This document shows, one piece after another, positions 38,727 to 52,714 of a DNA stretch of 64,000 nt. Positions within the stretch are counted from its first letter, which is position 1. Every line of letters begins with the position of its first letter. Position numbers and translations under genes: made by a program. The notes beneath the pieces are model-generated. The model was not told where the DNA came from. It saw nothing but the letters and a program-made list of their open reading frames with translations, and did no database searches. The stretch comes from Bryobacteraceae bacterium (GTDB lineage Bacteria; Acidobacteriota; Terriglobia; Bryobacterales; Bryobacteraceae), in contig JASHNT010000090.1 of NCBI GenBank assembly GCA_030041495.1, positions 28,119-92,118 on the forward strand, given 5' to 3'.

Positions 38727-38801
38727 AGGCCGAAAAATTTCGCTGAACGGCACACGCCCCCGGCGCATCTCACCGTTTACACTCATCGTTAGGTGACTTG
38801 C

Positions 38802-40319
38802 ATGAAGACCTTGTTTGTCCATCCCAGCTCACTGATGTATTCCGAGATTTATCTGCGGCTGGAGCCTCTGGGGTTGGAACTGGTGGCGGCGTCGGCCCGC
38901 CAAGCCGGGCATCCGGTGCGCTTGTTGGATCTGCAAGCCTTCCGGCATCCCGATTTTTTCCGGCTTTTAGACGAATGGAAGCCGGAAGCCATAGGCTTCT
39001 CCCTGAATTACTTGGCTAATATTCCGGAAGTATTGGACCTGGCTAAGGCCGCCCGGCAGCGGCTACCGGAGTGCTTCGTTTTTGCCGGCGGGCACAGCGC
39101 TTCTTTCACTGCGAAGGAAATCCTGTCGCACGCAGCCGGCGCGATTGACTGCGTGGTGCGAGGCGAGGGCGAAGGAATCACGCCGCAAGTGCTGGAAGCA
39201 GCCGGCGATCCCGGCAAACTGCGCACTTTGCCCGGCATCACTACGCTGGCCGGCGACGGCCCGCCTCCGCGGCTGGTAGAGAATCTGGACGCGCTGAATC
39301 CGGCGCGTGATCTTCTGGCCCGGCGCAGGAAATATTTCATCGGCGTGCTGGACCCGTGCGCTTCGATCGAGTTTACGCGCGGCTGCCCCTGGGATTGCAC
39401 CTTCTGCAGCGCCTGGACGTTCTACGGCCGCAATTACCGCAAGCTGAGCCCGGAAGCCGCGGGCGAGGATCTGGCGCGCATCGCTGAGCCGGGAGTTTTT
39501 GTGGTGGACGATGTCGCCTTCATTCATCCCGAGCACGGCGAGGCATTGGCGCGGGAAGTGGAAAAGCGCGGCATCGAGAAGCAGTATTATCTGGAAACAC
39601 GCGGCGACGTGCTGCTGCGCAACAAAGAGATTTTCCGGTTCTGGAAGAAGCTCGGCCTCAAGTACATGTTCTTGGGGATTGAGGCCATCGACGACGAGGG
39701 GCTAAAAGCCCACCGCAAGCGCATCACCATAAAGAAGAATATCGAAGCTCTGGAGTGCGCTCGATCGCTCAACATTCACGCCGCGGTCAACATTATTGCC
39801 GACCCAAACTGGGATGAACGCCACTTCGCCGCGGTGCGCGATTGGGCTTTGTCGGTGCCGGAGATCGTGCATATCACCGTGAACACTCCTTACCCTGGGA
39901 CCGAGACCTGGGTCACGGAGTCGCGCAACTTCACCACTCGTGACTACCGCTTGTTCGACGTGCAGCACGCCGTGCTGCCCACCAAACTGCCTCTGGATCA
40001 GTTTTACAAGGAGCTGGTGAAGACCCAGCAAATCCTGAATCAAAAGCACCTCGGTTTTGCGGCTTTGAAGGATACGTTCGTCATGGCGGCGAAATTCCTG
40101 GCCGCCGGACAGACCAATTTCGTCAATATGCTGTGGAAATTCTCGAAAGTCTATAATGCGGAGCGTCAGAATGCCGATCACCGCCGCGAGGTTCACTACT
40201 CCATCGGACTGCCTCCGGTAACGGCGCAGACCAAGGTCGACCCCGGGCTGCTCTACATCCACAAACCCGCGGCACCTTACATGCACAAACCCGCCGCCGC
40301 GGGCCGGAATGTGAGCTAA
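38802..40319 (+). CDS. hpnR: Hopanoid C-3 methylase (B12-type radical SAM)
   Basis: HpnR methylates the A ring of hopanoids at C-3. The ATG at 38802 has AGGTGA at good spacing (the track uses a GTG three codons earlier), giving 505 residues. The N-terminal B12-binding-like domain reads MKTLFVHPSSLMYSEIYLRL and continues through VFAGGHSASFTAKEILS. The radical SAM cluster is at about residue 195 in RGCPWDCTFCSAWTFYGRNY, a CX3CX2C motif, followed by FLGIEAIDDEGLKAHRKRIT and VNTPYPGTETWVTESRNFTT. The match to recalled HpnR proteins extends over nearly the whole length. 3-methylhopanoid production by acidobacteria fits this. Confidence 0.9.
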   Translation: MKTLFVHPSSLMYSEIYLRLEPLGLELVAASARQAGHPVRLLDLQAFRHPDFFRLLDEWKPEAIGFSLNYLANIPEVLDLAKAARQRLPECFVFAGGHSASFTAKEILSHAAGAIDCVVRGEGEGITPQVLEAAGDPGKLRTLPGITTLAGDGPPPRLVENLDALNPARDLLARRRKYFIGVLDPCASIEFTRGCPWDCTFCSAWTFYGRNYRKLSPEAAGEDLARIAEPGVFVVDDVAFIHPEHGEALAREVEKRGIEKQYYLETRGDVLLRNKEIFRFWKKLGLKYMFLGIEAIDDEGLKAHRKRITIKKNIEALECARSLNIHAAVNIIADPNWDERHFAAVRDWALSVPEIVHITVNTPYPGTETWVTESRNFTTRDYRLFDVQHAVLPTKLPLDQFYKELVKTQQILNQKHLGFAALKDTFVMAAKFLAAGQTNFVNMLWKFSKVYNAERQNADHRREVHYSIGLPPVTAQTKVDPGLLYIHKPAAPYMHKPAAAGRNVS

Positions 40320-42592: not shown

Positions 42593-45070
42593 ATGAGCGA
42601 CTTTCTTAGGGACCTGAAGCAATCCATCCGGATGTTCTTGAAAAGCCCCGGATTCACATTCACCGCCGTCACCGCGCTGGCCCTGGGGATCGCGGCCACC
42701 ACCGCGATCTATTCGATTGTCGATGCAGTCGTATTACGACCCCTGCCCATCCGTGATGCGGACCGGCTCGTCATTCTGTTGACCAATAGCGTGGATCAGA
42801 AGGGACAGCCGACGTCCGGACCGGCGGCATCGCCGGTGAAATTCGCCTTTTGGCGAACGCTCACCAATGTGCTGGAAGACGTCTCGGCCTCCAATTCCAT
42901 CGCGCTGAACTACACCGGAAGCGACAAGCCGCAGCACCTTTCGGGCCTAGAAGCATCCCTCGATACCTTCAAGACCTGGGGGATCCCCATTCTGCGTGGA
43001 CGCGCATTTTCCGCAGCCGAGGATTTCCCGCACGGACCTCATGTCGCGATACTCAGCGAGAAGTTCTGGAAGACGGACTTCGCCTCCGACCCGCAGATTG
43101 TCGGCAAAAACATCGAGTTGAACGGCGATGCCTACACGGTTATTGGAGTCTCCGCGGACAATCCCGCATGGGTGCAATTTGGTCCGCAGGCAGATGTTAT
43201 CGTCCCCATGCAGCTCGACCCCAACAGCACCGACGTCGGCAATTATTTCGGAGCCTACGCACGGCTGAAGCCGGGCGTCACGCTGGAGCAGGCGCAAGCC
43301 GCTCTGGCGGCATCCACGCAACGGCTGCGCGACAGATTTCCGCTGGCCATTCGGCCCAAGGACACGTTCACGGTCAAAACCTACAAAGAGTTCCTGACCG
43401 GCAACACCCGCCCGCTGCTGTGGGTGATGCTGGGCGCGGTCGGGCTGGTTCTGTTGATCGCCTGCGCGAACGTCGCCAACCTGCTGCTGGTGCGGGCCAC
43501 CGGCCGGCGGAGGGAGATCGCCATTCGCGCGGCCATTGGAGCAGGACGCGGCAGAGTGGTGCGCCAGTTATTGACCGAAAGCTTGCTGCTTTCGCTCGCA
43601 GGAGGCGTGATCGGAGTGGCGCTCGGCTACGCCGCGATTCGCGCTCTGCTGGCGATCAACACCGCCGGACTGCCGCGACTGGGTGAGAACGGAGCCGCGG
43701 TGTGGATCGATTGGCGGCTGGCCGCCTTCGCCGTCGGAATTTCGTTTGCGACCGGGATCATCTTCAGCCTGTTCCCCGCTCTGCAAGGCTCGCGGGCGGA
43801 TCTAAACGCGGTGCTGAAAGATAGCAGCGGGCGATCCGGCACGGGACTGAGGCAGAACAAAGCCCGCTCGGCACTGGTGGTGAGCGAAGTCGGACTCGCC
43901 GTGGTGCTGCTGGTGGGCGCGGCGCTGCTGATCCGGACCTTCGTCGCGCTATATGCCGTGGACCCTGGGTTCGACCCCCACAACGTGCTGACCATGCGCA
44001 TGCTGCTGACCGGAGGAAAGTATCAAAAGACCGCGGGTGTGCAAGATGCAGCTCGCGATGCAGTGGAACGGATACGCGCCATCCCCGGCGTTATCGATGC
44101 GGCGGCCACGGACTTTATCCCACTGCAGGTCGGCGCGGGTTTGCCGTTCAACATCGTCGGCCGGGCGCCGGTGCAAGGGCCATTCAGCGGAGCCGGAGCA
44201 TGGTCGCCGGTCGGAGCGGGATTCTTCGAGACCTTCAAGATCGCACTGAAGCGCGGCCGTTTCTTCACGGACCGCGATGACGCGAAAGCTCCTGCGGTGG
44301 TAATCATCAACGAAGCGATGGCCAAGCAATTTTGGAAGGACGGCGACCCGCTTCAGGACCGCCTTGCGATCGGCCGCGGCGTCCAGGGCGAATTCGCGGA
44401 TGAGCCGGTGCGGCAGATTATCGGCGTCGTGGCCGACGTTCACAACGGCGCGCTGAATGTGGACACCGGGCCGACGATGTACGTTCCGATCACCCAAACT
44501 CCGGACCGCCTGAACGCCTTTCTGGTGCGCCTTCTCCCGATTTCCTGGGCGGTGCGCACACAGGGCGATCCTTACCGGGTCTCCGCAGCGGCTCAAGAGC
44601 AGCTTCGTCAAGCAACCGGACTGCCCGTCACCAACGTCCGCTCCATGGACCAGGTAGTGGAGCTCTCCACCGCCCGCCAGCGCTTCAACATGCTGCTGAT
44701 GACCGTGTTCGGGGCGATGGCTCTTCTGCTGGCTGCGATCGGAATCTACGGACTGATGGCGTACACGGTGGAGCAAAGGACGCAGGAGATCGGCATCCGG
44801 TTGGCGCTGGGCGCAGAAACCGGGCAGGTTCGCGGTATGGTGATGCGCCAGGGAATGACGCTGGCGCTCATCGGGGTGGGGGCGGGGCTGGTGGCCGCGT
44901 GGGCTCTGGCGAAGCTGATCGAGAGCCTGCTGTTCGGCGTCAAGGCTCGCGATCCGCTGGTGTTCGTCGCGGTTCCGCTTACGCTGGCGATCGTTGCTTC
45001 GGTGGCCGTTTGGTTCCCCGCAGTACGGGCCAGCCGGGTCAGCCCGATGGACTCCCTCCGTTATGAATGA
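42593..45070 (+). CDS. ADOP-type duplicated ABC permease (MacB/FtsX family)
   Basis: Product of 825 residues with GGAGG before the ATG. It contains two MacB_PCD-FtsX units. The first begins FLKSPGFTFTAVTALALGIA with a large periplasmic part, and its TM block includes LWVMLGAVGLVLLIACANVA. The second repeats the pattern, ending in MTVFGAMALLLAAIGIYGLM and AVRASRVSPMDSLRYE. This fits the acidobacterial duplicated orphan permease family. No ATPase gene is adjacent, as usual for these orphans. In the family the partner ATPase and substrate are unknown. Confidence 0.93.
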   Translation: MSDFLRDLKQSIRMFLKSPGFTFTAVTALALGIAATTAIYSIVDAVVLRPLPIRDADRLVILLTNSVDQKGQPTSGPAASPVKFAFWRTLTNVLEDVSASNSIALNYTGSDKPQHLSGLEASLDTFKTWGIPILRGRAFSAAEDFPHGPHVAILSEKFWKTDFASDPQIVGKNIELNGDAYTVIGVSADNPAWVQFGPQADVIVPMQLDPNSTDVGNYFGAYARLKPGVTLEQAQAALAASTQRLRDRFPLAIRPKDTFTVKTYKEFLTGNTRPLLWVMLGAVGLVLLIACANVANLLLVRATGRRREIAIRAAIGAGRGRVVRQLLTESLLLSLAGGVIGVALGYAAIRALLAINTAGLPRLGENGAAVWIDWRLAAFAVGISFATGIIFSLFPALQGSRADLNAVLKDSSGRSGTGLRQNKARSALVVSEVGLAVVLLVGAALLIRTFVALYAVDPGFDPHNVLTMRMLLTGGKYQKTAGVQDAARDAVERIRAIPGVIDAAATDFIPLQVGAGLPFNIVGRAPVQGPFSGAGAWSPVGAGFFETFKIALKRGRFFTDRDDAKAPAVVIINEAMAKQFWKDGDPLQDRLAIGRGVQGEFADEPVRQIIGVVADVHNGALNVDTGPTMYVPITQTPDRLNAFLVRLLPISWAVRTQGDPYRVSAAAQEQLRQATGLPVTNVRSMDQVVELSTARQRFNMLLMTVFGAMALLLAAIGIYGLMAYTVEQRTQEIGIRLALGAETGQVRGMVMRQGMTLALIGVGAGLVAAWALAKLIESLLFGVKARDPLVFVAVPLTLAIVASVAVWFPAVRASRVSPMDSLRYE

Positions 45071-45177
45071 AGGCGCGTAAGCGCCGGCCCATCCCGTCGT
45101 GACTGTATAGCGTGTCCGTCACCCGAAAACATTGATATCATGTTTCCGTTCGGCGGGAAGCCCCAAGGAGACGGATC

Positions 45178-47157
45178 ATGGCGAAATCGAAGAACACGGT
45201 TGCTGGTAACGGCGGATTTGGCAGGCGCGGATTCTTGAAGAATGCGGCAGCGAGCGCGGCCGGCGCGGCGTTGGCCACCACGGCGCCGCTGGTCGAAGCC
45301 CAGCAGCAGAGCAACGGCAGGGCGCGAACCAATGGGGCGGCTCCGGCTCCGACCGAGGCGCAGCTTGAGCGCGACGCCGGCAACGTCCGGCCGCCGGCGG
45401 TGACGCGGACCATCACTCGTCCGGGCTCGGACCTGATGGTGCAGGTCATCAAGGATCTGGGCATCGAATATGCGGTGGCGAATCCGGGGTCGAGCTTCGA
45501 GGGCTTGCAGGAATCGTTCATCAACTACGGCAATCCCCGCAACAAGGACCCCGAGTGGATCACGGCGCTGCACGAAGAATCGGCTGTGACCATGGCTCAC
45601 GGCTACGCCAAGGCCGAAGGCAAGCCGATGTGCGCGCTGCTGCATGGCACCATCGGAATCCAGCACGCGTCCATGTCGATTTACCAGGCCTACTACGATC
45701 GCGTGCCGGTGCTGATGCTGGCGGGCAACGATCCGGATTTCATCGCCGCGCATACGGCGCAGGACATGGCGGGGATGGTGCGCAGCTTCACCAAGTGGGA
45801 CGCGCAGCCCAAGACCGTGGAAGACGCGCTGCGCGCGATCCAGCAAGCCTACAACGAAGCCATCACGCCTCCCATGGGACCCACTCTGGTGGTGCTGGAC
45901 ACCGAGATTCAGAAGGAGAACGTCCCGACGCTGCAGATTCCTGCGTATAAGCCGCCGACGTTCATGACCATCGACTCTTCGCATGCCCGCGAAATCGCGT
46001 CGGGGTTGTTGGCCGCGCAGAACCCGCGAATCGAGGTCGGCCGTTTGCGCACTCCTGGTGGCGTGAAGCAGGCAGTAGAGCTTGCCGAGCTGGTCGGCGC
46101 ATCCACCAGCACCGCGGCGACGCAAGGTCCCATGAGTTTCCCGCAAAGGCACGCCCTGTGCGGACCGGGCGCGGACACCAATTACGATTACACGCTCGGG
46201 CTGGAAGTTGCCGCGCCTCAGGTGGGCATCGTCGGTCCCGGGACATCCACCATCGTTGCCGAGCGAGATAAGGACCATATCGATTTCGGCGGCATCACTC
46301 CGGGCGTGGGCGGGCGCGGAGCGGGGGGAGGCAGAGGCGGGCGCGGCGGACGGGGAGGCCGCGGAGGCAACGCGGTGCCCAATGCCACTCCAATCGAAGC
46401 CGATGCCGAAGCCAGCCTGCCGTTGATCATCGAACAGGTGAAGAGCCAGATGACTTCGGACCAGAAGTCGCGCATCCAGGCGCGCATCGCCAAGCACACG
46501 ACTGCGAATCACGAGGCTCGCGTGACCGCGATCAAAGCCGCGGTCGAAAGCAAGATGGCGGGATGGAACGGCAGCCCCATCAGCACGGCTCGCATTTACG
46601 CCGAGCTGTGGCCGCTGATCATGAACGAAGACTGGTGCCTTTCCTCGCCCAGCAATTTCTCGGGCGGGCACAACGCGCAGTTGTGGGATCACGACAAACC
46701 CTACAGCTACCTGGGCGGTCAAGGCGCGGGCGGCATGGGCTACGGCGCTCCGGCTTCGGTGGGCGCGGCCCTTGCGGCGAAGCATCGCGGCCGCATCGTG
46801 ATCAACGTGCAGACCGACGGCGATTTGAACTACGCTCCCGGCGTGCTGTGGACCGCGGTGCATCACAAGCTGCCGATGCTGACCGTCATGCACAACAATC
46901 GCGCCTGGCATCAGGAATACATGTTCGTCGAATACATGGCGGGCGTCCGCGGCCGCGGCGCGCTGAACGCGGACATCGGCAGCACTCTGCGCGATCCGTT
47001 CATCGACTACACCAAGATGGCGGCCGGTTACGGCATGGCGCATGAGCTGGAGCCGATCTCGGACCCGGCCAAACTGCAGGCGGCGCTGCGGCGCGGCGTG
47101 GCGTCAGTGAAGCGCGGCGAGCCGTATATGATCGACGTGATCACGCAGCCTCGATAA
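45178..47157 (+). CDS. Tat-exported thiamine-pyrophosphate-dependent enzyme
   Basis: Product of 659 residues with AAGGAGA upstream and a twin-arginine signal (FGRRGFLKNAAASAAGAALA). It has the fold order of acetolactate synthase/benzoylformate decarboxylase-like enzymes: an N-terminal PYR domain with the activating glutamate near residue 133 (ALHEESAVTMAHGYAKAEGK) and a C-terminal PP domain with the magnesium-TPP motif (TDGDLNYAPG, then VMHNN). The centre carries an insertion rich in RGG (GRGGRGGRGGRGGN), where classical members have an FAD or regulatory domain. TPP enzymes are normally cytoplasmic, so export is unusual; Tat would allow cofactor loading first. A cytochrome c gene follows 21 bases later, suggesting oxidative use of a 2-oxo acid with electrons passed to haem. 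That is inference. Confidence 0.85.
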   Translation: MAKSKNTVAGNGGFGRRGFLKNAAASAAGAALATTAPLVEAQQQSNGRARTNGAAPAPTEAQLERDAGNVRPPAVTRTITRPGSDLMVQVIKDLGIEYAVANPGSSFEGLQESFINYGNPRNKDPEWITALHEESAVTMAHGYAKAEGKPMCALLHGTIGIQHASMSIYQAYYDRVPVLMLAGNDPDFIAAHTAQDMAGMVRSFTKWDAQPKTVEDALRAIQQAYNEAITPPMGPTLVVLDTEIQKENVPTLQIPAYKPPTFMTIDSSHAREIASGLLAAQNPRIEVGRLRTPGGVKQAVELAELVGASTSTAATQGPMSFPQRHALCGPGADTNYDYTLGLEVAAPQVGIVGPGTSTIVAERDKDHIDFGGITPGVGGRGAGGGRGGRGGRGGRGGNAVPNATPIEADAEASLPLIIEQVKSQMTSDQKSRIQARIAKHTTANHEARVTAIKAAVESKMAGWNGSPISTARIYAELWPLIMNEDWCLSSPSNFSGGHNAQLWDHDKPYSYLGGQGAGGMGYGAPASVGAALAAKHRGRIVINVQTDGDLNYAPGVLWTAVHHKLPMLTVMHNNRAWHQEYMFVEYMAGVRGRGALNADIGSTLRDPFIDYTKMAAGYGMAHELEPISDPAKLQAALRRGVASVKRGEPYMIDVITQPR

Positions 47158-47178
47158 AGGATGCCAAGGACGATTTTC

Positions 47179-47643
47179 ATGAAGAAGATTTTGATTTTTG
47201 CGGTCGCGCTAGCGGCGTCGGCCGTAATTCTGAGTGCGCAAGGGCGAGGACGCGGAGCCGCCGCGGCGCCCGCCAAGCCTGTCCCGGCGCCGACCAGTCC
47301 GGTCACCGGCAATGCGGTTACCGGCAAGACCCTGTACTACAACTTCGGCTGCTACGCTTGCCATGGCTATAATGGCGAAACCGGAGCTCGGCCGTTTGTC
47401 GGGCGCTGGGGCAATCTGTCGACTGAACAGAGTTTCCTCACGTTTTTGCGCGGACGCGCAAACGTGGCTCCGCTGACTCCCGCGACCAACATGCCGAACT
47501 TCAGCACGAATTCGATGTCCGACAAGCAGGCCAAGGACATCTACGCTTACATTCGCACCTTCCACAGCACCGCTCCTCCGGATGTGAAGGACGCACCCGC
47601 CCTGAACGAAATCGTGCAGGCGGCCGAGGCGGGGAAGAAGTAG
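47179..47643 (+). CDS. Exported monohaem cytochrome c
   Basis: The ATG at 47179 follows AAGGA and gives 154 residues (ATG 47161 also possible). The signal MKKILIFAVALAASAVILSA is followed by a short RG/Ala/Pro-rich linker. There is one haem motif, GCYACHGYNGETG, and distal methionine candidates in ATNMPNFSTNSMSD. It is a small class I-like periplasmic electron carrier. Tight coupling to the exported TPP enzyme upstream and the PQQ dehydrogenase about 0.7 kb downstream make it a candidate electron acceptor for either. Confidence 0.88.
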   Translation: MKKILIFAVALAASAVILSAQGRGRGAAAAPAKPVPAPTSPVTGNAVTGKTLYYNFGCYACHGYNGETGARPFVGRWGNLSTEQSFLTFLRGRANVAPLTPATNMPNFSTNSMSDKQAKDIYAYIRTFHSTAPPDVKDAPALNEIVQAAEAGKK

Positions 47644-48240: not shown

Positions 48241-48366
48241 GGACGGCCAGGACACACCCCGGGGATGGAGCGTGCTGCTACCTGGGCGGCTTGCCGCGTT
48301 GCGGTGGCGCGCGCGCAGCGATAAGATAGCCCTTCGGTTGTTCGATTTAACAATTAGGTGAAATCC

Positions 48367-50025
48367 ATGAAGATTCGACCACTCCTGTTGGTGTGTCTGC
48401 CGGCGTTGATGTGGGCCCAGGGCCGCGGCGGACCGCAAAATCGCGAAGCCGACGTCAACCCGGTCTCTTTCGACCGCATCCTGAACGCGAACAAGGAGCC
48501 GCAGAACTGGCTGAGCTACTCTGGCGGCACGATGAGCGACCGTTACAGCGAGCTCAAGCAGATCACTCCGGAGAACGCCAAGGATCTCACGCTTAAGTGG
48601 GTATTCCAGGCGCGGACCCTCGATAAAGAAGAGGTGACGCCGCTGGTGGTGGATGGCGTGATGTACACGGTGCAGAGTCCCAACGATGTGGTTGCGCTCG
48701 ATGCGGCTACCGGCAAACAAATCTGGATCTACCAGCACACTCCAGCCAAGGGCACCACCAATCCGTGTTGCGGCAATCTCACTCGCGGCGTCGCCATTCT
48801 GGGAGACAAAATTTTCCTCGCGACATTGGATGCCCAGGTGATCGCCATTAACGCCCGCACCGGCAAAGAAGTATGGAAGACTCAGGCCGGCGATTATACA
48901 CAGCAATATTCCATGACGCACGCACCGCTGGTGGTCAAGGATAAAGTGATCGCCGGCGTGGCGGGCGGGGAGCACGGCATCCGCGGCTATATCTGCGCCT
49001 TCGACGCCAACACCGGCAAAGAAGTTTGGCGCTTCGACACGGTCCCCGGACCGGGAGAGCCCGGCAATGAGACCTGGCTCGGCCCGGATGGAAAGCCCAA
49101 CGATTCCTGGATGCACGGCGGCGCGCCCGTCTGGGTGACCGGATCGTATGATCCTGATACGAACCTGACCTACTGGGGTACCGGCAATGCCGGACCCGAT
49201 TGGGATGGCGACGCACGCTTGGGCGACAACCTCTATAGCTCCTCCGTGGTCGCGCTCGAGGTGGACACGGGCAAGCTTAAGTGGTACTACCAATTTTCGC
49301 CGCACAATGAGTTCGATTGGGACGCAACGCAGGTTCCGGTGCTGGCTGACATCAATTTCAAGGGAAACCCGCGCAAAGTGATGCTGTGGGCCAATCGCAA
49401 TGGTATGTTCTACGTGCTGGACCGCACCACGGGCCAGTTCCTGTTGGGCAAGCCGTTTACGAAGGTCAATTGGGCAACCGGTTTCGATGAGCGCGGCCGG
49501 CCGATGCTGGATCCCAAGGTGAAGCCGACCAAGGAAGGCACTTTGGTGTATCCCGGCAATCAGGGCGGGACCAACTGGTACAACCCGTCCTTCAGCCCGT
49601 CCACGGGGCTGTTCTACATCCCGACATGGGAAAATTCTTCCAGCGTGTATGTGAAGGGCGACGCTCCGCCGGAGTTTCACGCCGGGCAGAGCTTCTCCGG
49701 TCCCTTCCCGAGAAATCAGAAGACCGATGATGACCTGTTCAGCTCCGTGATCGCGGTCGATCCCAACACGGGCGAGCGTAAGTGGACGCACCGGTTGAGC
49801 GCACCCAACACGGAGGCCGGCATCCTGACCACGGCGTCGAATGTCCTGTTCAGTGGCGGCCGCGATGGAGCCTTCTACGCTCTTGACGCTCGCACGGGAG
49901 ATCTGCTGTGGGATACCAACCTTGGGCCTTCGGTCTCTGCCGGACCGATGACGTACGAGGTCAGCGGCAAGCAATACGTCAGCATCCAGTGCGGCAGCGG
50001 GTTGTACACGTTCGCGCTACGCTAA
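48367..50025 (+). CDS. PQQ-dependent alcohol dehydrogenase (quinoprotein, no cytochrome domain)
   Basis: The ATG at 48367 with AGGTGA five bases upstream gives 552 residues (the track uses GTG 48358). A signal (LLLVCLPALMWAQ) is followed by RG-containing text and an eight-blade propeller with tryptophan-docking motifs such as VVALDAATGKQIWIYQ, VIAINARTGKEVWKTQ, ICAFDANTGKEVWRF and FYALDARTGDLLWDTN. The adjacent cysteines in PCCGNLTRGVAI are the vicinal disulfide typical of methanol/ethanol dehydrogenases. No C-terminal haem domain is present, so electrons must go to a separate cytochrome; the cytochrome c at 47179 is a candidate. The substrate is unknown. Confidence 0.92.
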   Translation: MKIRPLLLVCLPALMWAQGRGGPQNREADVNPVSFDRILNANKEPQNWLSYSGGTMSDRYSELKQITPENAKDLTLKWVFQARTLDKEEVTPLVVDGVMYTVQSPNDVVALDAATGKQIWIYQHTPAKGTTNPCCGNLTRGVAILGDKIFLATLDAQVIAINARTGKEVWKTQAGDYTQQYSMTHAPLVVKDKVIAGVAGGEHGIRGYICAFDANTGKEVWRFDTVPGPGEPGNETWLGPDGKPNDSWMHGGAPVWVTGSYDPDTNLTYWGTGNAGPDWDGDARLGDNLYSSSVVALEVDTGKLKWYYQFSPHNEFDWDATQVPVLADINFKGNPRKVMLWANRNGMFYVLDRTTGQFLLGKPFTKVNWATGFDERGRPMLDPKVKPTKEGTLVYPGNQGGTNWYNPSFSPSTGLFYIPTWENSSSVYVKGDAPPEFHAGQSFSGPFPRNQKTDDDLFSSVIAVDPNTGERKWTHRLSAPNTEAGILTTASNVLFSGGRDGAFYALDARTGDLLWDTNLGPSVSAGPMTYEVSGKQYVSIQCGSGLYTFALR

Positions 50026-50067: not shown

Positions 50068-50892
50068 ATGATCGTTGAGATCGAAGGCGTGCCGCTGCAT
50101 CTGGCCCATCCGGATGAGCTGACAGTCAACTGGGTAGGACAGGAAGAGGTCATGCGGCAATTATTGGCCGCGTGGCTCGTGATCGACGCGCAGGACCTGC
50201 CCATGAACCCGCGCTTGCTGGGCAAACCCGGAGTGGGCAAGACCACGCTCGCTTACGCCGCGGCCAAGCGCCTGGGCCGCGAAGTCTACATCATGCAAGC
50301 CACAGTAGACACCCGTCCGGAAGATCTCCTGGTGACGCCGGTGATCGAGGGCGACTCCAGGCTGCGCTACGTGGCATCCCCGCTAGTCACGGCGATGCTG
50401 CGCGGCGGCATCGTGATTCTGGACGAAGGCAATCGAATGAGCGAGAAGAGCTGGGCCAGCCTGGCTCCGCTGCTCGACAACCGGCGGTACGTCGAGTCGA
50501 TCGTCGCCGGGATCAAGATCAAGGCGCACCCTCTGTTCCGGCTGGTGGCGACCATGAATGACGACGCCAGCACCTTCGATCTTCCCGAATACATCCACTC
50601 CCGCCTGCAGCCGCAAATTCTGATCGATTTTCCGGAAAGGCACGAGGAAATCGCAATTTTGCGCGAAAATCTGCCGTTCGGCGACGATCATATTCTGAGC
50701 TATGTCACCGATTTTCTCCAGAACGCCCATGCCGCCGATGAGCGTTATACCGCGCGCGACGGCATCAACATCGCCCGGTTCGCCATGAAGCTGGCGAGCG
50801 AAGAGGCGCGCGGCGTGAGCTCGGAGATTCTGCGCCTGGCCGTGACGCAAACGCTCGGCGACGAGGCCTTGCGGTATGTCCCTCGAAACTGA
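50068..50892 (+). CDS. MoxR-type AAA+ ATPase
   Basis: Product of 274 residues. Walker A is RLLGKPGVGKTTLAYAAAKR (Lys58), Walker B GIVILDEGNRM, sensor 1 LVATMNDD, and an arginine-finger-like segment follows in YIHSRLQPQILIDFPER. MoxR proteins act as chaperone-like ATPases, usually with a VWA-domain partner. Here no VWA gene follows; instead the next ORF overlaps by 17 bases and encodes an unrecognised 612-residue protein, which is therefore the likely client or partner. Confidence 0.9.
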   Translation: MIVEIEGVPLHLAHPDELTVNWVGQEEVMRQLLAAWLVIDAQDLPMNPRLLGKPGVGKTTLAYAAAKRLGREVYIMQATVDTRPEDLLVTPVIEGDSRLRYVASPLVTAMLRGGIVILDEGNRMSEKSWASLAPLLDNRRYVESIVAGIKIKAHPLFRLVATMNDDASTFDLPEYIHSRLQPQILIDFPERHEEIAILRENLPFGDDHILSYVTDFLQNAHAADERYTARDGINIARFAMKLASEEARGVSSEILRLAVTQTLGDEALRYVPRN

Positions 50893-52714
50893 GATCAAGC
50901 GCGGAGGCCTGGAGCGGGGGCGGACACTATATTTTCCCGTGGCTCCGGGACGCGTCGAATTCACCATCGCTCTGCGGCGGCTGCTGTTAGAGCGGCGCCC
51001 GAAGATCGTGGCCGTGGAGCTGCCCGGGTTTCTGGAATCGGCGTACCGCCGCGCGGTCGACCGGCTGCCGGAGATTTCAGTGATCCTGTACATGGAGGAA
51101 AACGGCCCCAGCTCAGAAGACGGCGACCGCGCCGTCTATGTTCCGGTTGAGCCCGCCGATCCTTTCACCGAAGCTGTACGAACGGCCGAAGAAATCGGTG
51201 CGCAGGTGATGTTCCTGGAGCCGGATTCCAATGAGCGCCCCCACCTCCCCGACCAATACCCCGATAGCTACGCAATTGCGCGCATCGGCCTGGAGAAATA
51301 CATCGAGTCTTACCGGCTGTGGCCGCAGACACGCACTGAAGAGGTCAGCGCGCACGCGGGCGGAATGGCTTGGAAGCTGCAAGGCGCGAATCCGGAGGCA
51401 AGCATTGTCGCGGTCGTATCGTTGAACCTGCTGGACCCTCTGCTCGACGCCATGGAGGCTCCGCAGGAAGCGCCCGCGCCGCGACGAAAGAATCCGGCAG
51501 TGCGCCTGCTCAATCCGCACCCTGACTGCCTGGCGGAGATCACGGTCGAATATCCGTATTTGCAAGAGCGCTACGAGTTCTTCCGGCTGGATCTTCGCGA
51601 CCAGGAGACGCTCGACCGTCCGCGTGTCCAATGGGATCTTCTGCGCGAGGCCGAGACAAAATATACGCAATCGACTGGAGACAAACTGGAGCATTGGCAG
51701 CGGCGGCTGATCGCACGGTACACGCGCAGCCTGGCACAGACCAGTGGCGACCTAATGGCCGGCGTTTACGACCTGGCCGTCGCCGCGCGTTCCATTGTGG
51801 ACGACAACTACGGCTGGGAAGTATGGCAGATGGCGAATCGTTATCTGGCGCAGCATGAAACCTCGCCGCTTGAAACCGTGCGGCTCTCTGCCGGCGAAAT
51901 CTGGATCAACACCAAGCGGCTGCGCATCCGCCGCAGGCTTCCCCGCCCCAAGCAGATGCTTCGTCCCGCGGGCCTGAAGCCTCGCAAACGCGAGAAGGAG
52001 CCCGGCGAATGGGCCCGGCAGACCACTGGTAACGCCATCTGCTCCTATCCGCCCGAAGATCTGGTCATCGAAGACTACGGCCGCTTTTTGAAGAAAAAGG
52101 CCAAGGCGATCCTTTCGGAAGAACGCGTGCGCGTGGAGCCGTTCACCACCTCTATTCTGGACGGAATCGACATTCGTGAGACCATCCGCAACTGGCACCA
52201 GCAGAAAATCTACGTGCGGCAGGCGGACCGTTTGGCCGGCGAAGTTGGCGCGGTGGTGGTGATCTTCGACGAGGACCGCGAGGACCGGTATCAATATCTG
52301 ACCACCTGGCTGGGCGAGCATCAGAATGAATCCGACATGGCATTTTATTCCACGTTCCCGTTCGACAATCTGGTGGGGCCAGGAATTGGGCGCGCTGAAT
52401 ACGGCGGGTTTCTGATGACGCTGCCTCCGCGGCGGATGTTCGACGTTTGGTCGGATACCGAGTACGATTTCGCCGAGTCGAAAGCCGAGCGGCTATTGAT
52501 GGCCGGCCTCGATTATTCGGTCGAGCGTTTCGTCGTATACGTGGCCGCGAAGCCGCCGCGCTCGATTTTCCGTTCCATCGCCGCGCACGTGGGGCGTAAG
52601 ATCTTGTACGTCCCCATAGGCGCGCTGTCGCCCACGAAGCTCAAGAAGCTGCGCGTGGTCCACGTGCTCGACAGCTACGAGCGCCGGGCCGAAGCGAAAG
52701 AGTACATCTGGTAA
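50876..52714 (+). CDS. Unrecognised MoxR-coupled protein, 612 residues
   Basis: It overlaps moxR by 17 bases, so it is translationally coupled. Three regions can be seen. Residues 1-150 (LYFPVAPGRVEFTIALRRLL, RPKIVAVELPGFLESAYRRA) faintly recall the EreA/ChaN/TraB-like fold, including an acidic residue after a hydrophobic strand; this is a guess. The middle (about 180-400) is helical and charged with Arg-rich stretches (RLRIRRRLPRPKQMLRPAGL). The C-terminal 200 residues have alternating strands and helices (EVGAVVVIFDEDREDRYQYL, RFVVYVAAKPPRSIFRSIAA). No signal or membrane segments are visible, so it should be cytoplasmic. I do not recognise a named family and propose no function. Confidence 0.75.
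   Translation: MSLETEIKRGGLERGRTLYFPVAPGRVEFTIALRRLLLERRPKIVAVELPGFLESAYRRAVDRLPEISVILYMEENGPSSEDGDRAVYVPVEPADPFTEAVRTAEEIGAQVMFLEPDSNERPHLPDQYPDSYAIARIGLEKYIESYRLWPQTRTEEVSAHAGGMAWKLQGANPEASIVAVVSLNLLDPLLDAMEAPQEAPAPRRKNPAVRLLNPHPDCLAEITVEYPYLQERYEFFRLDLRDQETLDRPRVQWDLLREAETKYTQSTGDKLEHWQRRLIARYTRSLAQTSGDLMAGVYDLAVAARSIVDDNYGWEVWQMANRYLAQHETSPLETVRLSAGEIWINTKRLRIRRRLPRPKQMLRPAGLKPRKREKEPGEWARQTTGNAICSYPPEDLVIEDYGRFLKKKAKAILSEERVRVEPFTTSILDGIDIRETIRNWHQQKIYVRQADRLAGEVGAVVVIFDEDREDRYQYLTTWLGEHQNESDMAFYSTFPFDNLVGPGIGRAEYGGFLMTLPPRRMFDVWSDTEYDFAESKAERLLMAGLDYSVERFVVYVAAKPPRSIFRSIAAHVGRKILYVPIGALSPTKLKKLRVVHVLDSYERRAEAKEYIW

Follow-up and report, generated by a model that had tools for sequence, protein, structure and literature searches.

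In a Bryobacteraceae bacterium we identified a pair of adjacent genes encoding a thiamine pyrophosphate (TPP) enzyme with a twin-arginine (Tat) export signal and a c-type cytochrome, and we propose that the two proteins probably work together as a periplasmic 2-oxo acid (or aldehyde):cytochrome c oxidoreductase. The partnership of enzyme and cytochrome is itself well supported by the comparison of homologous sequences. The genes lie in a stretch of 64,000 nucleotides of contig JASHNT010000090.1, which is here called the window. The source genome has 6.1 Mb, and the nearest loci returned by protein search belonged to Bryobacteraceae, Acidobacteriota. Positions of the features discussed are collected in Table 1.

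Table 1. Features of the TPP enzyme and cytochrome c genes, in coordinates of the window.
Feature	Position	Strand	Basis
Ribosome-binding site AAGGAG of TPP enzyme	45165..45170	+	sequence; 7 bases before start
TPP enzyme, putative Tat export, 659 aa	45178..47157	+	ORF, Pfam, fold
Tat signal peptide of TPP enzyme (GRRGFLK, hydrophobic stretch, VEA cleavage-like site)	45178..45300	+	sequence, homologues, Pfam
Codon of E133, TPP-activating glutamate, in LHEESA	45574..45576	+	invariant
Codon of H156, LH..G histidine place of benzoylformate decarboxylase	45643..45645	+	invariant; alignment to 4q9d, 6qsi
RGG-rich insert, residues 378-397, low-complexity loop in degenerate middle domain	46309..46368	+	alignment, pLDDT
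TPP/Mg motif DGD (547-549)...NN (573-574), then HQE (578-580)	46816..46917	+	alignment
Ribosome-binding site AAGGA of cytochrome c	47166..47170	+	sequence
Periplasmic (predicted) class-I mono-haem cytochrome c, Sec-type signal MKKILIFAVALAASAVILSAQ	47179..47643	+	Pfam, sequence
Haem attachment site CYACH	47350..47364	+	invariant CxxCH, 59/59 paired cytochromes
Axial methionine (TNMPNF)	47491..47493	+	invariant Met-Pro, 59/59 paired cytochromes

The TPP enzyme gene runs from an ATG at 45178 to a TAA stop at 47155-47157. The longest open reading frame for the cytochrome begins at 47161, 3 bases past this stop, but the ATG at 47179 is the better start because it is preceded by a ribosome-binding site. 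With this start, the gap of 21 bases between the two genes given in the initial annotation is exact. A 660-aa open frame runs antisense to the TPP gene (45061-47043, minus strand); high-GC coding DNA probably gives rise to it as a shadow frame.

Domain searches with Pfam placed both ends of the enzyme clearly within the TPP-dependent proteins, with TPP_enzyme_N at 76.7 bits against a cut-off of 26.8 (1.6e-21) and TPP_enzyme_C at 74 bits against 21.9 (1.5e-20). Together with the activating glutamate and the Mg-binding DG...N motif, these two domains assign the protein to the DC superfamily. TPP_enzyme_M gave no Pfam match in the window protein and matched in 13 of 37 homologues. The protein fell below the cut-off of all 25 NCBIfam models listed, including the benzoylformate decarboxylase model NF005485 (162 bits, cut-off 493) and TIGR00118, which tests for the pyruvate oxidase / acetolactate synthase type (118 of 538 bits). 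Among 37 aligned exported homologues, E133, H156, DGD 547-549, NN 573-574 and E580 were invariant, with only slight variation at H578 and Q579. The HQE triplet is a signature of the export family, which reads NNRAWHQE where non-exported relatives have a motif of the NNRSFYNDE type. Its acidic residue presumably sits close to the position that the catalytic Glu occupies in pyruvate decarboxylase, a correspondence mentioned as a lead only. Past about residue 330 the middle domain, which in benzoylformate decarboxylase holds the second active-site histidine (His281 type), is too diverged to be aligned.

To view docking, we obtained an AlphaFold model of a read-through chain in which the two genes were joined in frame (pTM 0.79; enzyme part good, cytochrome part moderate). 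A fold search with this model matched benzoylformate decarboxylase (4q9d first), benzaldehyde lyase and acetohydroxyacid synthase; folds free of FAD ranked first, and FAD-binding folds matched too. As modelled, the enzyme has the benzoylformate decarboxylase fold. Confidence was very low around the central RGG-rich insert pointed out in the initial annotation, where pLDDT fell below 50 for model residues 336-358, corresponding to protein residues 377-399. The insert is real but is no functional hallmark: it is confined to copies close to that of the window, while Gammaproteobacterial and paralogous copies carry other filler or none. A role as a functional element, for example in binding nucleic acids, was rejected since the insert belongs to one lineage and unrelated filler takes its place elsewhere.

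The N-terminus of the enzyme, MAKSKNTVAGNGGFGRRGFLKNAAASAAGAALATTAPLVEAQQ, is a textbook Tat signal. Its RRxF motif was invariant in all 37 aligned homologues, and Pfam TAT_signal matched in 20 of the 37, a set that does not include the window copy. The genome encodes TatC, so that a conserved twin-arginine signal and the matching translocase occur together, and the enzyme is accordingly classed as a Tat substrate whose export is predicted from sequence. The initial annotation had named the Tat signal, the activating glutamate and the Mg/TPP motif as the marks of this protein and had called for a check of the signal; in silico, all three proved invariant across the homologues. The cytochrome scored 37.1 bits against Cytochrom_C in Pfam (cut-off 21.3) and has the features of a class-I cytochrome c. 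It is of the plain class-I type, with weak matches to general carriers only.

We assembled homologues from 28 loci of named genomes found by protein search, and whole genomes belonging to this phylum and this family contributed many further loci. Linkage was counted over 74 TPP proteins, with duplicates removed and at least 400 bases of downstream sequence available, of which 68 carried the Tat motif. A cytochrome c gene lay directly downstream in 58 of the 68 Tat-bearing homologues, while of 312 other genes in these loci only 6 were followed by any CxxCH frame, even under a looser rule. Two further linked copies had their N-terminus cut by contig ends. The other ten Tat-bearing copies had no cytochrome directly downstream, and four of these, in L038, L041, L086 and L087, lie in clusters with one nearby. 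Because the loci are related by descent, the 58 linked cases are not independent events. On the maximum-likelihood tree the linked state required 8 changes compared with 13.9 for shuffled labels, with linkage spread widely over the tree and several apparent losses. In the subfamily of the window, linkage was complete (28/28), including a Gammaproteobacterial group nested among Acidobacteriota.

Enzyme and cytochrome also appear to have diverged together. Their distance matrices correlated with r = 0.71 over 59 pairs, where the maximum of 1000 shuffles was 0.17, and within the subfamily of the window the corresponding values were 0.69 and 0.38. The initial annotation had made its idea depend on whether the two genes are co-conserved, and the linkage counts and the agreement of the trees answer in its favour. 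The surroundings of the pair vary between loci and the pair itself is kept, so that it behaves as a self-contained module. That it has outlasted at least one move between phyla as well as many duplications speaks strongly for a functional pair. Read from sequence, the family, the export signal, the intact catalytic residues, the conserved linked cytochrome and the co-evolution are thus all in place.

Several clusters contain tandem TPP paralogues, arranged as TPP-cyt-cyt-TPP (L038, L041) or TPP-TPP-cyt (L086, L087), and these paralogues possibly form mixed oligomers or share one cytochrome. No natural fusion of enzyme and cytochrome genes was found among the loci examined; a 984-aa frame in L085 that had been considered as a fusion was rejected as an upstream frame extension. 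In another locus, a TPP-cytochrome pair lies next to the gene for a different kind of Tat-bearing TPP enzyme, whose middle domain is recognisable as TPP_enzyme_M (L104:1233-3206, minus strand; pair at L104:3641-5891). In the Gammaproteobacterial loci L042, L051, L053 and L054, proteins with an HHS motif recur near the pair, and the one scanned, in L054, contains DUF6152.

The pair was found in several Acidobacteriota families, in Gammaproteobacteria, and in Caballeronia and Novosphingobium. Plasmids of Caballeronia zhejiangensis (p3, L057:8809-11372) and Novosphingobium sp. KACC 22771 also carry divergent pairs with Tat signal and cytochrome, and in the Novosphingobium locus two cytochrome genes stand in tandem. 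The earlier remark that exported TPP enzymes are rare agrees with the counts: the enzyme was present in 12 of 297 Acidobacteriota genomes and, in a sample of 369 genomes from the class to which one Gammaproteobacterial carrier belongs, in 2, the seed being one of them. Within the family it occurred in 16 of 150 genomes, yet some Bryobacteraceae genomes hold about six copies.

We envisage the following sequence of steps. The TPP enzyme would fold and bind TPP and Mg in the cytoplasm and then leave through the Tat system, as its invariant signal implies, while the cytochrome would leave through Sec and have its haem attached outside. Judging from the family and the catalytic residues, a TPP-bound enamine (Breslow) intermediate would be formed, most likely by decarboxylation of a 2-oxo acid of the benzoylformate type, or possibly by direct binding of an aldehyde. 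Instead of only being protonated to the aldehyde, the enamine would give up two electrons, singly, to the dedicated cytochrome c, a step that linkage and co-evolution suggest, and hydrolysis would then free the carboxylic acid. The reduced cytochrome would pass its electrons to a terminal (haem-copper) oxidase. The genome contains three haem-copper oxidase subunit genes (COX1) as well as cytochrome c assembly genes. Ferricyanide and other artificial one-electron acceptors serve in assays of TPP enzymes, which makes one-electron transfer chemically plausible. We infer that electrons are transferred and in which direction they move, as well as the class of substrate and the absence of a flavin; the neighbourhoods of the exported branch hold no consistent hint of the substrate.

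The closest TPP relatives that are not exported provided a useful comparison, for which eight plasmids were examined. They form the nearest branch without an export signal, have the same catalytic residues as the window enzyme and show about 29-40% identity over the matched part. They differ from it in the motif after the Mg-binding residues and in their partners. The Tat motif was absent in all eight, none had a CxxCH gene within the stretch read, and in six of the eight (Salipiger, Acidovorax, Thioclava, Terrarubrum, Phaeobacter, Pacificitalea) an aldehyde dehydrogenase gene was adjacent or close by. An aldehyde dehydrogenase of the same kind occurred in only two exported loci (L102, L053), adjacent to the pair in neither. 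This exchange of an aldehyde dehydrogenase for a cytochrome suggests that the cytochrome replaces a partner of the NAD type upon export, and that the chemistry is the same in the exported branch, with the electron acceptor swapped. In the simplest reading, the cytoplasmic branch decarboxylates its 2-oxo acid and the resulting aldehyde is oxidised with NAD, and the exported branch would use cytochrome c as acceptor since there is no NAD outside the membrane. The occurrence of an aldehyde dehydrogenase in place of the cytochrome thereby lends indirect support to a passage of electrons to haem.

If the enzyme were instead a non-oxidative periplasmic decarboxylase or carboligase that released an aldehyde or acyloin, this product would be oxidised by a separate periplasmic dehydrogenase, such as a quinoprotein, and the cytochrome would serve that dehydrogenase. 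We regard this as unlikely, though it is the best placed of the alternatives. The nearest solved relatives, benzoylformate decarboxylase and benzaldehyde lyase, are non-oxidative, and ten copies have no cytochrome directly behind them, but it is the cytochrome that is conserved beside the enzyme and no dehydrogenase is, and the agreement of the trees is that of enzyme with cytochrome. A PQQ-type dehydrogenase does neighbour the pair in the window, and a few related loci also have one nearby. The window protein (48358-50025) belongs to the PQQ-type alcohol dehydrogenase family, scoring over the cut-off of TIGR03075 and having a Cys-Cys pair; it also comes near the 'acido-empty-quinoprotein' model, under its cut-off. 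Such a neighbour is unremarkable in a genome with about 49 quinoprotein genes (distinct places counted), a striking load of periplasmic oxidation, and the dehydrogenase was rejected as a third partner because of this abundance and because it is not conserved beside the pair. Elsewhere in the window we noted a hopanoid C-3 methylase HpnR (38793-40319; TIGR04367, 854 bits, cut-off 650) and, at 50068-52714, an AAA ATPase gene and, after it and overlapping it, a gene whose 612-aa product has no Pfam or NCBIfam match.

We consider it less probable again that the substrate is an aldehyde and not a 2-oxo acid, such that TPP adds to a periplasmic aldehyde, for example one produced by PQQ alcohol dehydrogenases, and the cytochrome oxidises the enamine to the acid. 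The same enamine arises from aldehydes in benzaldehyde lyase, a close fold match, and the host is rich in periplasmic quinoproteins able to make aldehydes; on the other hand, His156 and the acidic residue 580 resemble those of a decarboxylase, and the aldehyde dehydrogenases beside the non-exported relatives indicate that the TPP step there yields an aldehyde from a 2-oxo acid. That the cytochrome is a general carrier, co-transcribed by chance and having no direct dealings with the TPP enzyme, fits its plain character but is very improbable, as the pair persists across phyla and is duplicated repeatedly within genomes, the trees co-evolve, and the cytochrome is missing from the non-exported relatives.

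We assign an even chance to the most far-reaching reading: that these proteins represent a class of periplasmic TPP enzymes that use no flavin, iron-sulfur or NAD in oxidising 2-oxo acids or aldehydes, but pass single electrons from the enamine directly to a dedicated haem c. If this is true, electrons would have a new way into the respiratory chain, located outside the inner membrane, and bacteria could use 2-oxo acids or aldehydes for respiration with no need to import them. It would extend TPP redox chemistry to a haem c acceptor, offer a reason for the several copies in some soil Acidobacteriota, and supply a function for genes that at present are annotated just as 'thiamine pyrophosphate-binding protein' or 'c-type cytochrome'. 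Our search of open papers brought up no account of an exported TPP enzyme partnered by a cytochrome.

Among known systems, benzoylformate decarboxylase (4q9d, 6qsi) is the best match of the window enzyme in sequence (1.5e-34 to 4q9d) as well as in fold. The likeness includes the activating Glu, the active-site His in LH..G (His70 type, H156 in the window enzyme) and the DG..N motif. The window enzyme differs in its Tat signal and linked cytochrome c, in being about 130 aa longer, in its degenerate middle domain with an inserted helix and loop, and in the HQE signature. PoxB, or pyruvate:quinone oxidoreductase, is a TPP enzyme of the same superfamily that delivers electrons from decarboxylation to the respiratory chain; it is cytoplasmic, uses FAD and passes the electrons to quinone, whereas the proposed acceptor of the window enzyme is a periplasmic haem protein. 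In pyruvate:ferredoxin oxidoreductase a metal centre directly takes single electrons from the TPP intermediate, but that enzyme is cytoplasmic, relies on iron-sulfur clusters and CoA, and has a different architecture. Flavin, lipoamide and iron-sulfur acceptors are known for TPP enzymes that oxidise the enamine inside the cell. Set beside these systems, the TPP fold of the window enzyme is familiar, and its predicted compartment, its partner and its proposed acceptor are unfamiliar.
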